Part shown: positions 46,274 through 52,555 of the stretch, piece by piece
Layout of the letters: the number at the start of each line of letters is the position of its first letter
Position numbering within the stretch: the stretch's first letter is position 1
Assembly (NCBI RefSeq): GCF_030373185.1
Contig: NZ_JAUCZH010000004.1
Span: 186,001 to 250,000, forward strand
Source: Tabrizicola sp.
Lineage (GTDB): Bacteria; Pseudomonadota; Alphaproteobacteria; Rhodobacterales; Rhodobacteraceae
Length of the DNA stretch: 64,000 nucleotides
Reading direction: 5' to 3'
The notes under the pieces: generated by a model
The model's database searches: none
What the model saw: the letters and a program-made list of their open reading frames with translations, nothing else
Told to the model about the DNA's origin: nothing
Program-made: the position numbers and the translations under genes

Positions 46274-47149
46274 ATGACCTTGACCAAGCGGACCCGGATC
46301 ATTCTGCTGCTTGCCCCGGCGCTTGTGCTTTTGGGGGGGCTGTTCTTCTCGGCCCTGGGGTTGGGGCTGCTGCGGTCACTTCGCTACATGCCGTCGATCG
46401 GGCTGTCAGAGCCTGACTTGGCCGCATACATCGCCGTTCTGTCTTCGCCGGGCTTTCTGGCGTCGCTTGGCCTGTCACTCTGGATAGCGGGTGCTTCCAC
46501 GCTCATCTCGGTGATGATCGCACTTGGCGCGGCGCTCTTGCTGCGGCAGACCTTTCCCGGGCGACAGTTCATTGCATTTCTGTTCCAGTTGAACCTGACG
46601 ATACCGCATATCGTCGGGGCCATTGGGATCCTTTACCTCTTTTCGCAATCCGGTGCCTTTGCCCGGCTGGCCTTTGCCGGCGGGCTGATCGGCCGACCGG
46701 GGGATTTTCCGGCGCTGGTCCATGATCCTTTTGCCATCGGGATCATCCTGCAATATGTCTGGAAAGAGGTGCCGTTCATCGGCCTGATCCTTCTGGCCAA
46801 CATGCAGGCCATTGGTGAAGATCACGAGTCCACCGCCCGCAGCCTTGGGGCGACGCGCTGGCAGGCCTTTGTCCATGTCCTGTTGCCGATGCTGATGCCG
46901 GGGCTGGTTGCCGCCTCGGCGCTGGTTTTTGCCTTTGCCTTCGGGGCCTACGAGATTCCGCTGATCCTTGGCGCAAGCGCGCCCGAAGCGCTGCCAGTGC
47001 TGGCTTACCGCAGCTATACCGATGTCGATCTTGCCGCCCGGCCCGAAGCCATGGCCATGGCCATGATCATCGCACTCCTGGGCGGGGCGATGGTGCTGGT
47101 CTACGCCCGCTTTACCCGTCCGGCGGGAAGGGGGCGCAATGCGCGCTGA
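46274..47149 (+). CDS. ABC transporter permease (first half of a YnjC-like pair)
   Basis: A 291-residue inner-membrane protein with six predicted helices. The EAA loop is ARSLGATRWQAFVHVLLPMLMPG. It starts with AAGGGAC upstream and overlaps the next permease gene by 11 bp. In E. coli the corresponding YnjC is one fused permease; here two separate genes take that place. Confidence 0.88.
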   Translation: MTLTKRTRIILLLAPALVLLGGLFFSALGLGLLRSLRYMPSIGLSEPDLAAYIAVLSSPGFLASLGLSLWIAGASTLISVMIALGAALLLRQTFPGRQFIAFLFQLNLTIPHIVGAIGILYLFSQSGAFARLAFAGGLIGRPGDFPALVHDPFAIGIILQYVWKEVPFIGLILLANMQAIGEDHESTARSLGATRWQAFVHVLLPMLMPGLVAASALVFAFAFGAYEIPLILGASAPEALPVLAYRSYTDVDLAARPEAMAMAMIIALLGGAMVLVYARFTRPAGRGRNAR

Positions 47150-47945
47150 CGTCTTTCGCCTGATCGCGGGGATTACGCTGGCGCTTTGGCTGGTGCTGCC
47201 GCTGGTGCCGCTTGCCATCTGGTCTTTCGCGCATGGCTGGCGCTTTCCCGACATCCTGCCGCGCGACTGGTCGCTGAAGGCATGGGCCTACGCGTTCTCG
47301 CCGACCTCTGGCGTCGTGGGAAGCCTTGGGCTGACCCTGTTCATCGCCGCCGCGACCACGGTCCTTGCGGCACTTGTCGGCGTGCCTGCGGGCCGTGCGC
47401 TTGGCTTGCACGCCTTTCGTGGCAAGGCGATTGTCACCCTTGTTCTCTTGGCCCCGGCCATCGTGCCGGGGATCGCGGTGGCGCTTGGGCTCCATGGGGT
47501 CTTTCTGCGGCTGGGGCTGACCGGCACGGTCAGCGGCGTGATCCTTGCGCATCTGATCCCGGTCATTCCCTATATGACGCTGATCATGGCCTCGGTTTTT
47601 TCCAGCTTTGATACCACCTATGAGGATCAGGCCCGCAGCCTTGGCGCCCGCCCCCATCAGGTGTTCATCCATGTCACCCTGCCCGCGATCCTGCCGGGGC
47701 TGATGATCGGAGCACTCTTTGCCTTTCTTGTTTCGTGGTCGCAATATTTGCTGACGCTGTCGATCGGCGGCGGCAGGGTCCAGACCCTGCCGCTGACCCT
47801 GTTCACCTTTGCCAGTTCCGGCCGCAATGATGTGACCGGGGCGATTGCGATGATCTACATCCTGCCGGGTCTCCTGGTACTTTTGTTGACCGCGCGACAC
47901 CTGACCGGGCGCAATGCCGCACTGACACCAAGGGTAGCCCCATGA
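47139..47945 (+). CDS. ABC transporter permease (second half of a YnjC-like pair)
   Basis: A 268-residue permease with six predicted helices and the EAA loop ARSLGARPHQVFIHVTLPAILPG. It overlaps both the preceding permease and the following ATPase gene (4 bp), so the set is tightly coupled. Confidence 0.88.
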   Translation: MRADVFRLIAGITLALWLVLPLVPLAIWSFAHGWRFPDILPRDWSLKAWAYAFSPTSGVVGSLGLTLFIAAATTVLAALVGVPAGRALGLHAFRGKAIVTLVLLAPAIVPGIAVALGLHGVFLRLGLTGTVSGVILAHLIPVIPYMTLIMASVFSSFDTTYEDQARSLGARPHQVFIHVTLPAILPGLMIGALFAFLVSWSQYLLTLSIGGGRVQTLPLTLFTFASSGRNDVTGAIAMIYILPGLLVLLLTARHLTGRNAALTPRVAP

Positions 47946-48979
47946 CTGCGCTTGATCTGGCAGGGCTGACCAAACGCTACCCGGTGAATACCGCGCCCAC
48001 GGTGCAAGCGCTTGACCTGACAGTTGAAAGCGGCAGCCTGACGGCGCTGCTTGGGCCATCGGGGTCCGGCAAGACGACCGTCATGAAGCTGATCGCCGGG
48101 CTTTTGACCCCGGACGAGGGCGATATCAGGCTGGGCGGCCAGTCGATCCGCGACCTGCCCCCTGAACGGCGGCGGGTGGTGATGGTGTTTCAAAGCCCGC
48201 TGCTCTTTCCACATATGACGGTGGCGGAGAATGTTGGTTTCGGTCTGCGGATGCGGGGCGTTGCGCCAAGCCAGACTGCCGCGCGCACCGCTGCCATGCT
48301 GGAAAAGGTTCGACTGACAGGGCTTGGCACCCGCCGCCCGGTCGAGTTGTCCGGTGGCCAGCAGCAGCGGGCGGCGCTGGCCCGGGCGCTGGTGTTGGAG
48401 CCGGACCTCCTTTTGCTGGATGAACCACTCTCGAACCTTGACGCATCGCTGCGCGACGAGATGCGCGATCTGATCCTGAGCTTGCAACGCGAAACCGGCG
48501 TAACCACGCTGGTCGTGACCCACGACCAATCCGAGGCGGTCATTCTGGCTGACCGGATCGCCCTTCTCCTGGACGGCAGGCTTGCGCAACATGCGACCCC
48601 GGACGAAATCTACCGCCGCCCGGCCTCCCGGGCTGTGGCCGAGTTCTTCGGGGGGGTGAACTTTCTGCCCGGACAGGCGGCTGGGGGTGTCTTTCAATCC
48701 GACCTTGGCCCGCTGCCGCTGCCGCCCGGCCACATCAAGGGCGGGAGTGTCCTGACAATCCGACCCGAGGCGATCGTGCTTGGACCGGGGCCTGATGCAC
48801 GAGACGCCACAGTTCTGGCCTGCACCTTTCTTGGCACCCAGACGCGGGTCGAGCTTGATCTGGGTGGCACACGGTTGCAGGCCCTGACAAACCCGTGGGC
48901 CGCAAGCGAACTTGCGCCCGGAGACAGGGTCGACGTGACCTTGCCACAGGACGCACTTTGGCTGTTGTCCGGCAGCTGA
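47942..48979 (+). CDS. ABC transporter ATP-binding protein (YnjD/PotA-like)
   Basis: A 345-residue ATPase: Walker A GPSGSGKTTVMK, Q-loop FQSPLLFPHM, signature [15 protein letters not shown], Walker B LLLLDEPLSNLDAS, and an H-loop VVTHDQSEAV. The C-terminal 110 residues form a TOBE-like regulatory domain (GSVLTIRPEAIVLG). It energises the YnjBCD-like importer. The family is close to those for spermidine, iron(III) and thiamine, so the substrate is open. Confidence 0.9.
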   Translation: MTALDLAGLTKRYPVNTAPTVQALDLTVESGSLTALLGPSGSGKTTVMKLIAGLLTPDEGDIRLGGQSIRDLPPERRRVVMVFQSPLLFPHMTVAENVGFGLRMRGVAPSQTAARTAAMLEKVRLTGLGTRRPVELSGGQQQRAALARALVLEPDLLLLDEPLSNLDASLRDEMRDLILSLQRETGVTTLVVTHDQSEAVILADRIALLLDGRLAQHATPDEIYRRPASRAVAEFFGGVNFLPGQAAGGVFQSDLGPLPLPPGHIKGGSVLTIRPEAIVLGPGPDARDATVLACTFLGTQTRVELDLGGTRLQALTNPWAASELAPGDRVDVTLPQDALWLLSGS

Positions 48980-48986
48980 GCCCCGC

Positions 48987-50033
48987 TCAGGCCCCGTGGG
49001 AGGCCAACAGAACCGCCATACCGCGCCCGGCATGTTTGGCCGCGTATAGCGCGCGGTCGGCGGCAGCAAGGATCTGGACAGCATCCGGTGCGGCAAGATC
49101 AAGTGACCGGACGATCCCGATACTGGCAGAGACGCGACAAGGCTGGCCTTCAAACGCCATCGGTTCGGAGACCCGTGCGATGATCCGCGTGGCAATGGCC
49201 TGAAGCGTTTCCGGGTCGGTTCTGCCAGACAGGATGATCACGAATTCATCGCCACCAACGCGCGCGGCACAATCCTCGGCCCGGACCTGTTCGCGAAGGA
49301 TGCGGCCGACGGTCTCCAGCACGAAGTCGCCGGCGGCATGGCCCAGCGTGTCATTGACGGACTTGAAGAAATCAAGATCCATGTGCAACAGGCCGAAGGG
49401 GGCCTGCGCCGCGCACAGCCGTTCCAGCACCAGATCAGCCGCCCGCCGGTTGCGCAGGCCGGTCAGCGGATCGGTCAGAGCCTCTTCGGCGGCGGCGACG
49501 CGAGCGCCTTCAAGCCGCAGGTTCAGCCCGCGCAATTCCCGGGTGACGGCGGCATTGGCCTCGGCCAGATAAAGCAGTTCCATCGCCAGTTCGGTTGCGG
49601 CGAAATCGGCGTCGGTCAGGCAGAATTCCCGTACTGCGGCAATCAGGTCGATGCCGAAAGACAGGTTCAGCAGCACCGCACCACCCTCCGAAGGCCCACC
49701 CTCCGAAGCTCCGCCACCCAAGGCGATGTCAACGGGCAGGCGCTGGCCAAGTCCGCGCAGCCCCACCCTTTCGCGGTGGCGCGGCACGATGCGGAACCGC
49801 TGCCCGGCGCGGTCCAGAACTTCATCAACCGTGACCGCCCCACCCGGTGATCGCACTTCAAACAGATCCTGAAACCGGGCGCCGATGACGGCCTGCCCCT
49901 CAAGCACACGCATCAACGTTGGCCCGGCGCTGATGACACAGCCCGAGGCGTCAAGCAGCAGATGCATCGGCATGAAACGTGACAGGCCGTCATGCCCGAT
50001 GGTCAAGACTGGTTCCTGCATTCTTTCAGTCAT
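48987..50033 (-). CDS. Diguanylate cyclase with H-NOX-associated (HNOBA) domain
   Basis: A 348-residue protein. Residues 1-140 are an HNOBA/PAS-like domain: FMPMHLLLDASGCVISAGPTLMRVL and IGARFQDLFEV. A coiled coil links it to a GGDEF domain from about residue 185: LTDPLTGLRNRRA, LHMDLDFFKSVNDTLGHAAG and the intact catalytic RVGGDEFVII. It should make cyclic di-GMP. No EAL domain is present. A 15-bp direct repeat at 49681-49708 encodes SEGGP/SEGGA in the first part. It lies 3 bp downstream of the H-NOX gene, its usual partner. Confidence 0.92.
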   Translation of the reverse strand: MTERMQEPVLTIGHDGLSRFMPMHLLLDASGCVISAGPTLMRVLEGQAVIGARFQDLFEVRSPGGAVTVDEVLDRAGQRFRIVPRHRERVGLRGLGQRLPVDIALGGGASEGGPSEGGAVLLNLSFGIDLIAAVREFCLTDADFAATELAMELLYLAEANAAVTRELRGLNLRLEGARVAAAEEALTDPLTGLRNRRAADLVLERLCAAQAPFGLLHMDLDFFKSVNDTLGHAAGDFVLETVGRILREQVRAEDCAARVGGDEFVIILSGRTDPETLQAIATRIIARVSEPMAFEGQPCRVSASIGIVRSLDLAAPDAVQILAAADRALYAAKHAGRGMAVLLASHGA

Positions 50034-50036
50034 CTC

Positions 50037-50612
50037 TCAACGCTCTGGCAAGGCAAGGTCGAAACGGCGGCCCGAGCCGTGAAAGCTGTCCAGAATTCGA
50101 ACAGTAATCCGGTCACCGCCATCTGGGGTGATCAGGCAAAGCGTGCCATAGTCATCGGCCATCGCGGTAAGCATGCCCACCAGAACCCGCAAGATGCCCC
50201 TGAGTTGCGATTTGCACCAGATCTCGAACTGATCGGCACCGATTTCGCGCAAGGTGATGACCGGAAGATCAAGGTCAGGCAAGGCAAGGCGGGCGCGGCC
50301 GGGCATTTCTTCAAGCGAGTGCAGAAAGTCGGCATAGCTGGTTCCGCCGAACCGCAACAGCCGGCGCGCGCCTTCCTGACCAGGGTTCGTGACCAGATAA
50401 GTCCCCATGTCTTCCCATATGGTTTCAACCGGCCGCCCCAGCACATCAGCCGCGTGTTCCGCCACGCGGTCGGCCATGCCTGCATCATAGCGCAGCATCG
50501 GCTCGAAAGTCTCGACTGCCAGCGAGGACCGGCGGCAGACAGCCTGCCAGATTGCTGGCCCGAAGGTATCGCGGACGTAGCCTTGCAGGGACCGCAGCAA
50601 AAGCGCATCCAT
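50037..50612 (-). CDS. H-NOX domain protein with degenerate heme-binding residues
   Basis: A 191-residue protein of the heme-nitric oxide/oxygen-binding fold. It begins MDALLLRSLQGYVRDTFGPAIW, as H-NOX proteins do, and ungapped comparison with soluble guanylate cyclase places P104 (FLHSLEEMPGRARL) at the proximal-heme histidine; the YxSxR heme-propionate motif is CxSxL (WCKSQLRG). The protein therefore probably does not bind heme in the normal way. It is adjacent to the HNOBA-GGDEF gene. The start at 50612 matches the family; an ATG at 50642 is possible. Confidence 0.85.
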   Translation of the reverse strand: MDALLLRSLQGYVRDTFGPAIWQAVCRRSSLAVETFEPMLRYDAGMADRVAEHAADVLGRPVETIWEDMGTYLVTNPGQEGARRLLRFGGTSYADFLHSLEEMPGRARLALPDLDLPVITLREIGADQFEIWCKSQLRGILRVLVGMLTAMADDYGTLCLITPDGGDRITVRILDSFHGSGRRFDLALPER

Positions 50613-50696
50613 GTCAGCCCCCAAAATGGTTTCCGACGCCATGCTAATCCGTATCGGTTAACAAAACCCAAGGGACGCACTTTCTCAGGAAATCCC

Positions 50697-52424
50697 TCAC
50701 GGCAGCATCAAAAGTCCGGTCTCGCCGGTGCCAAGCTGGTTGATCAATGCCGGGGTAAGGGGCGGCGGTGTCTCACGCCATGCGCGCAGCAAGGCGACCA
50801 TTTCCTCGGACTGGGGATAGCGGCCATCGGGGCGCAGGGCCTGACGTGTGATCAGCATGCCCTCAGCACCAAGATAGAGGCCGACAACCTCGGCAAAGTC
50901 GGCGCTGCGTTCAAGGATCAGCATCGCCTCTTCACCGGGATAGGCGGGCAAGAGATCAGCCACCACCATCAGGCAGGCGGGCTGCCCATCTTCCAACTCG
51001 CGGTCGCAGACCGCTTGCCAATCGCGCAGCATGTAATCGGCCGCGCCGGCAAGCAGCGTGTCGCGGGTTCCTGTGGCCGTAGCGGGCTGCACGGGCATCA
51101 GGTCCGCAAGTGCCTTGGCCGCCATCGCATGACTGTTTCCTCCGGGGTCATCATCGCCCGCTAGCCGGGCGGCAAGGGCTTCCTGGCCCGGAGCCTTGGC
51201 CAGTTCGGCAAGCACGGCAAGAGCATCCGCCCCCGGTCGCCCCCATTTCTCAAGCGCGCGCAGATCCAGATCCGCAACCGCCGTATGGCCCGCCTGAAAC
51301 CGCGCAAGCTGGCTGTTGGCGGAGATCAGTTCGGCATTCAGCAGCGGTGTCAGCCAAAGCCCAGCCAACGCGATCACCACCAGCGCGATGCGGATATTTG
51401 CCTGGCGGACCCGCTCCATCCAGCCAGCGCCACGCAGGATCGCAACCGCATAGACCGCGCCATAGGCAAGCCCCAGCCCGGTCAAAAGGGCCACAAAGAC
51501 CCGTTCCGGCGTCCAGCCGTGCTGGTCTACCCGCAGCCAGATCGCCCAGCAGGCAAGGCCGCCAAGCAGCGGCAGGATCAGCGCCATGGCCTGCGCCGCG
51601 CCGCGCAAGACCGGGCTTTGCGTCGCTTCCGCATCGCTTTGGTCGACAGCGATCGAGACCAGAGAAACGCCCGCTGCCACCATGGTCAAAAGCAAAAGCG
51701 CAGGTGACAGGCCGTTGAAAAGCCCCTCCAGCCCTCGAAATGGCAGCGCGGCGAGAAAAACCAGCATCACCCCAAGCACCACCGGCAAAAGCAGACGGAA
51801 CAGCCGCAACACCAGATAGGGCGACAGAAGCTCTGCCAGTTCATAGACCACCGCCATGCCAAGACCCAGCACCGCCCCGGTGACGATCAGCGGCACGATC
51901 CCGTACTCCAGCAGATCGTCGATCACCGTGACGCCGACGATCTGCAAGACCTGATCGGAAAGGAAGATCACCAGCCAGACCAGCCCGGTGAAGGCCCATG
52001 CAGCGGCGAAACGCACCACGATCGACCAGGCCTCAAGGAACAGCGCGCCATAGTCGCGCCAACCGCTGCGGGCATCTGCGATCAGGAACGGCACCGGCAA
52101 GGTGGCCACGACAAGGGCTGCCAAGGCGGCTAGCGGCGAATTGAAGATCTGGTCAGCGACCTCGTAGCGCTGCCCCGCCAGCCAGACGAGCGCCGCCGTC
52201 CCCGCCCCAAGACCGAAGGCGCGGGGCAAGGCACGCAGCAGCCCGATCGGTCCGGCCATTGCCAACGTCGCCGCGAACAAGACCGAGACAAGCGCAATCG
52301 CTACCAGCGCCACGCGGTCGCCGATCAGGTTGCGGTCCGCCGCCTCGACCAGCGCCCAAAGGAGCACGCCGCCGGTGGCCCCGGTCAGGGTCAGCCACCA
52401 CCGATCTGCCATCTGCCCACCCAT
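50697..52424 (-). CDS. DUF4153 family multi-spanning membrane protein
   Basis: A 575-residue protein with about ten hydrophobic helices in the N-terminal 360 residues (WLTLTGATGGVLLWALVEA, VALVAIALVSVLFAATLAM and others), followed by a soluble C-terminal region rich in leucine and alanine. The pattern LARFQAGHTAVADLDLRALEKWGRPG is shared by DUF4153 proteins. Start at 52424 with AAGGGAAA. The function is unknown. It is 84 bp from the H-NOX gene on the same strand, but no link is evident. Confidence 0.85.
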   Translation of the reverse strand: MGGQMADRWWLTLTGATGGVLLWALVEAADRNLIGDRVALVAIALVSVLFAATLAMAGPIGLLRALPRAFGLGAGTAALVWLAGQRYEVADQIFNSPLAALAALVVATLPVPFLIADARSGWRDYGALFLEAWSIVVRFAAAWAFTGLVWLVIFLSDQVLQIVGVTVIDDLLEYGIVPLIVTGAVLGLGMAVVYELAELLSPYLVLRLFRLLLPVVLGVMLVFLAALPFRGLEGLFNGLSPALLLLTMVAAGVSLVSIAVDQSDAEATQSPVLRGAAQAMALILPLLGGLACWAIWLRVDQHGWTPERVFVALLTGLGLAYGAVYAVAILRGAGWMERVRQANIRIALVVIALAGLWLTPLLNAELISANSQLARFQAGHTAVADLDLRALEKWGRPGADALAVLAELAKAPGQEALAARLAGDDDPGGNSHAMAAKALADLMPVQPATATGTRDTLLAGAADYMLRDWQAVCDRELEDGQPACLMVVADLLPAYPGEEAMLILERSADFAEVVGLYLGAEGMLITRQALRPDGRYPQSEEMVALLRAWRETPPPLTPALINQLGTGETGLLMLP

Positions 52425-52555
52425 GTGCTTTCCCTTGTCTGTTTCGTTGCAGCTTATGCGCGACAGCACGCGGGGGCCATAGTCAGGATGTCCCGCATGG
52501 TTGCATGAACCGCCAAAGCCAGCGATCCTCGCTTCACCCGCATGGAGATGCAGAT

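Follow-up and report, generated by a model that had tools for sequence, protein, structure and literature searches.

The window examined here, a 64,000-nucleotide stretch of a Tabrizicola sp. contig (NZ_JAUCZH010000004.1, positions 186,001 to 250,000), encodes on its minus strand an H-NOX protein and, directly downstream, a diguanylate cyclase that the H-NOX protein probably controls without heme-based sensing of nitric oxide (NO). The H-NOX open reading frame (ORF) spans 50037-50642 and gives 201 amino acids when read from its upstream ATG, but we prefer the in-frame start at 50612 (gene 50037..50612), since related proteins of the clade described below open with M-H-G-L at the window's second Met. 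Residues are numbered here from 50642; numbering from 50612, as used in a first-pass annotation made from the sequence, is lower by 10 (P104 for P114, H98 for H108, C133 for C143, L137 for L147). The protein scored 70.3 bits against the Pfam profile HNOB (cut-off 25.5), the single such match in a genome-wide profile search, and its predicted model has the H-NOX fold. The partner gene (48987..50033, minus strand) comprises an N-terminal part of HNOBA and a GGDEF domain. The latter scored 137.2 bits and has an intact GGDEF motif (49242..49256), from which catalysis is predicted; five residues before it lies an RxxD motif (RAED, 49272..49283), which we take to be an inhibitory site (I-site). The earlier view that the partner keeps both an H-NOX-associated domain and an intact GGDEF motif held fully for GGDEF and partially for HNOBA, which was borderline (24.7 bits, cut-off 23.4) and covered profile positions 3-74 of 216.

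In a phmmer alignment to chains of the Nostoc H-NOX protein Alr2278, the codon CCC at 50301..50303 places P114 at the proximal His105, and C-K-S-Q-L (50202..50216) stands opposite Y-x-S-x-R, the heme-propionate motif; the alignment has a single gap, far upstream of both sites, and the His105 numbering was checked. The window protein hence lacks both the proximal His and the YxSxR expected of a heme-sensing H-NOX. These assignments agree with the by-eye reading of the first-pass annotation, which put Pro at the proximal position and Cys and Leu in place of the Tyr and Arg of the motif, and which described the surrounding fold residues as conserved. Indeed, P127 (P118 in Alr2278) is kept in 99%, and G80 and G156 in 100%, of 195 clade tips, the two invariant glycines probably being the H-NOX hinge. 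The canonical Alr2278 and Shewanella oneidensis SO2144 share the fold, and in Alr2278 the glycine pair and Pro118 are present too; unlike the window protein, both bind heme and have His and YxSxR.

Alignment with relatives at the proximal, former Tyr and former Arg positions revealed the same loss in most of those sampled. HNOB matches were present in 296 of 394 genomes of the same family (Rhodobacteraceae), and matches to the window protein in 287 of the 394, including at least two (G004, G294) to a canonical type. A class-wide draw of 385 genomes yielded 11 with a match, five within the family and six outside it; the five out-of-family matches that were aligned (L257, L259, L260, L261, L263) all had His and YxSxR, while the sixth (L262), a shorter piece, was excluded. 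Among the first 112 clade members, including the window protein, the proximal column held Pro in 86 (N 6, R 5, H 5, Q 4, A 2, G 2, T 1, S 1), as against His in all 31 canonical relatives of that set. In the enlarged set, the 195 clade tips showed Pro in 150, His in 11 and other residues in the remainder (R 8, N 6, Q 5, E 4, A 3, G 3, S 2, T 1, K 1, D 1), and His was found in 37 of 37 canonical H-NOX. The Tyr, Ser and Arg of YxSxR were all kept in 0/195 clade tips versus 35/37 canonical proteins; one tip retained two of the three residues and 64 retained one, and a text search anywhere in the sequence recovered YxSxR in two tips (L102, L239), away from the aligned place. The commonest residue at the former Tyr position was Cys (C143; 63% of the clade). 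These counts come from a non-random sample of mostly well-ranked matches, with 30 entries hand-picked, mostly for divergence, and 80 named loci in the enlarged set that were the best 80 of at least 573 confirmed.

As judged from these sequences, the loss of His is a clade-wide state and no one-off decay in the window genome. PMC5588039 has already reported it for Rhodobacter sphaeroides and Paracoccus denitrificans, and an R. sphaeroides-like sequence (L092) falls inside the 195-tip clade; the extent of the loss, and the exceptional His of Dinoroseobacter shibae discussed below, were not found in the single literature collection searched. According to PMC7108781, the proximal His is absolutely conserved in a survey of V. 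cholerae H-NOX homologues (about 600, the number being from PMC12329717), so that survey apparently did not include this clade. A second, canonical and His-bearing H-NOX occurs within the family (L002-L031), and 22 of 30 such genomes also encode the clade protein; a further genome with a canonical H-NOX (G360) has pieces of the clade protein.

In our phylogenetic reconstruction, from which the proximal column was excluded, the 195 clade tips formed one branch without intruders, with a long stem (1.57) and a Shimodaira-Hasegawa-like approximate likelihood ratio test (SH-aLRT) support of 97, although this was a quick tree with many weak inner supports. Mapping His versus not-His required 11 changes for the 11 His tips, such that each His tip represented a separate change. 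Such counts cannot separate gain from loss; repeated gain of His is favoured because Pro dominates most of the tree, and Pro (CCY) to His (CAY) is a single base step. In the 18-tip subclade holding D. shibae, Pro is not dominant (P 6, N 4, E 4, H 3, G 1), and there His may instead have been retained. The window pair belongs to the Rhodobacteraceae type with a His-less H-NOX and a cyclase, being in the same clade, bearing Pro and having the cyclase directly downstream.

The gene pair itself is fixed. A cyclase gene lies downstream on the same strand at 212 of 217 clade loci, the other five ending at a contig edge with 0-125 bases left. At 178 loci the two genes are within 200 bases of each other, and at 34 their stop-to-stop frames, in which starts are unplaced, overlap by more than 200 bases. 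The partners conserve GG[DE]EF (209/212) and the I-site pattern R..D-5aa-GG[DE]EF (207/212), and a same-reading-frame check detected no natural H-NOX-cyclase fusions.

A characterized member of the clade is that of D. shibae, which we identified with genome G035 from a 6001-base stretch 100% identical to a DFL 12 plasmid at the same coordinates, a stretch that also occurs in other plasmids, including one of Salipiger. Its one HNOB match falls in the clade and has a proximal His (CAT), while the tip closest to it in the tree (L165) has Pro (CCC). The D. shibae pair (Dshi_2815/Dgc1) resembles that of the window in its clade, gene arrangement, lack of YxSxR and DUF4153-like upstream gene, but differs in the proximal His and in its reported activity: on the evidence of a mutant and of direct assays it is classed as a heme NO sensor, and once it has bound NO it is reported to inhibit Dgc1 (PMC7232146, PMC8846402). 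PMC7232146 also points from this protein to an R. capsulatus homologue. No further clade member with reported NO binding was found in the literature collection. NO sensing should not be transferred from D. shibae to the Pro type, since D. shibae is a rare His-bearing tip. These genes have been described as NO sensors, yet the protein tested with NO has a residue that is absent from 184 of the 195 sampled clade tips.

A Pro-type counterpart with genetics is available from P. denitrificans, in which Pden_3719 has Pro and a GGDEF gene directly downstream (DgcA, Pden_3720), as in the window (record L264, strain HAMBI_2443, compared by sequence alone and outside the tree). The two H-NOX proteins are 34.6% identical, and mutant phenotypes exist for the P. 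denitrificans pair only. According to PMC5588039, the axial His is missing from its H-NOX and from that of R. sphaeroides alike; mutation of hnoX impairs biofilm formation in part and speeds up NO consumption, a double cyclase mutant overproduces biofilm, and H-NOX is suggested to inhibit DgcA. These mutants fit inhibition of the cyclase by H-NOX.

The most likely reading, to which we give middling confidence, is that the window protein is a heme-independent partner of H-NOX fold that restrains the neighbouring diguanylate cyclase. Under this reading, the fold and probable hinge would be kept while heme would not be bound in the H-NOX way, and the protein would hold the adjoining cyclase in check, probably through the cyclase's N-terminal HNOBA-like part. 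Pro at the site of the iron-bound His may give a rest shape resembling NO-bound H-NOX, in which the Fe-His bond is broken, and the protein would then inhibit by default until some other signal, or a shift in protein level, releases the cyclase. The sequences and model show the loss of the residues, its reach within the clade, the constant gene pairing and the conservation of fold and glycines; that the protein is heme-free in the cell, touches the cyclase, inhibits it and rests in an NO-bound-like shape is what we infer. A comparable case is the H-NOX domain of the alpha subunit of soluble guanylate cyclase (sGC), which carries no heme and is part of a cyclase complex (PMC6839917). The first-pass annotation had read the locus as a sensor that lost its heme ligands and either senses something else or became a structural regulator of the cyclase. 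The loss, which most relatives sampled share, and a probably altered mode of action are supported, whereas decay of the sensor in this genome is not, given the clade-wide state and its report in PMC5588039; the structural-regulator idea agrees with the mutant data from P. denitrificans and with the constancy of the gene pair, so that the interpretation as a whole is partly supported. Should the Pro type be heme-free, cyclic di-GMP control in a large bacterial group would rest on some other input, and the natural Pro and His versions would allow H-NOX signalling to be tested without heme.

Several points weigh against a heme-independent restrainer. Heme could occupy the pocket with a different ligand or with no ligand at all, and loss of YxSxR alone does not exclude heme, because the NO-binding D. 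shibae H-NOX also lacks it. Moreover, the P. denitrificans authors ascribe their own phenotypes to NO acting via H-NOX (PMC5588039). In structural comparisons with the predicted model, the human sGC states were separated by a Z of about 1, which is nearly a tie, while no such order appeared for the S. oneidensis pair (Z 17.9 for the NO form, 18.1 for the unligated form) or the Manduca sGC pair (15.6 active, 15.7 inactive); the predicted model may also echo its training structures.

Among the alternatives, it is rather unlikely that heme is still bound, either by a non-canonical ligand or in a loose site, and that NO is sensed as reported for D. shibae. The reported inhibition of Dgc1 by an H-NOX without YxSxR argues for it (PMC8846402, PMC7232146). 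However, the D. shibae protein, as one of 11 scattered tips with a proximal His, is no guide to the Pro type. Positions presumed to line the heme pocket stay hydrophobic across the clade, which is in keeping with retained heme. In contrast, a search for candidate ligands among the His, Cys, Tyr, Met and Lys columns of the 112 members found only Tyr52 (96%) and Tyr165 (97%) to be more than 90% kept, His12, Met49, Met161, His108 and Cys143 being more variable. NnrS, an NO-linked membrane protein, likewise offers no help to this alternative, as neither the window genome nor its single sampled congener had a match. Across the family, NnrS was present in 170 of 388 genomes, with four matches in D. 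shibae. Broken down by proximal residue, it occurred in 6/9 genomes with His, 45/97 with Pro and 9/25 with other residues, and no link between His and NO metabolism was shown in this sample (Fisher test of His versus Pro, p 0.31).

Separately, His98 (H108; 50319..50321, minus strand), raised by the first-pass annotation as a substitute ligand, is unlikely in that role: His occupies this column in only 73 of the 112 members, D. shibae has Asp, and the residue sits in the same helix six residues before the proximal position.

It is also doubtful that the vacated pocket senses another small molecule and relays this to the cyclase. Still more speculative, and quite improbable in our estimation, is that most cyclase-paired H-NOX of the Rhodobacteraceae are receptors with a hydrophobic ligand in the emptied pocket, the His tips, that of D. 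shibae included, being secondary returns and the published NO sensing a lineage-specific exception. A cysteine redox sensor is very improbable: the heme-free V. cholerae H-NOX does use Cys residues of a zinc site to respond to oxidation (PMC7108781), and Cys is the commonest residue at the former Tyr position, but only two alignment columns of the 195 tips exceed 20% Cys (45% and 63%), so that a three-Cys zinc site of the V. cholerae type is not conserved. A decaying gene without function would account for residues lost relative to canonical H-NOX and for the altered M-H-G-L-x-N start in the window's genus, but is hardly credible, since 287 family genomes have a match, the frames are open, residues specific to the clade hardly vary and the partner gene stays in place.

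The altered start just mentioned lies at 50595-50612 (minus strand), where the window and its single sampled congener (L033) read M-D-A-L-L-L and the clade mostly M-H-G-L-I-N; on the sequences compared, it is a genus-level change at an otherwise well-conserved N-terminus.

Directly upstream of the H-NOX gene is a weakly DUF4153-like gene (50697..52469, minus strand; 24.2 bits, cut-off 27). Such a gene was adjacent upstream in 89 of 223 loci (217 clade and six outgroup), including those of D. shibae and the R. sphaeroides-like L092, and in 34 of the 80 named loci; some clade members thus have it next to the pair on the same strand. We followed only the cyclase and DUF4153-like genes, as the clustering of neighbours was noisy, with spurious frames mixed in and PleD-like and partner cyclases merged. 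One mixed cluster held 31 upstream minus-strand frames, candidates for PleD-like cyclases. At one locus (L230:1295-2860, minus strand), a second cyclase with REC-GGDEF architecture, PleD-like by eye, stands upstream of the H-NOX pair in divergent orientation. In Phaeobacter sp. G2 (L265:367-1920), the pair is on a 120-kb plasmid and adjoins a trimethylamine methyltransferase-family gene. Finally, an ATP-binding cassette (ABC) transporter operon in the window (46274-48979, plus strand), encoding two permeases and an ATPase with a TOBE domain, is convergent to the cyclase gene.
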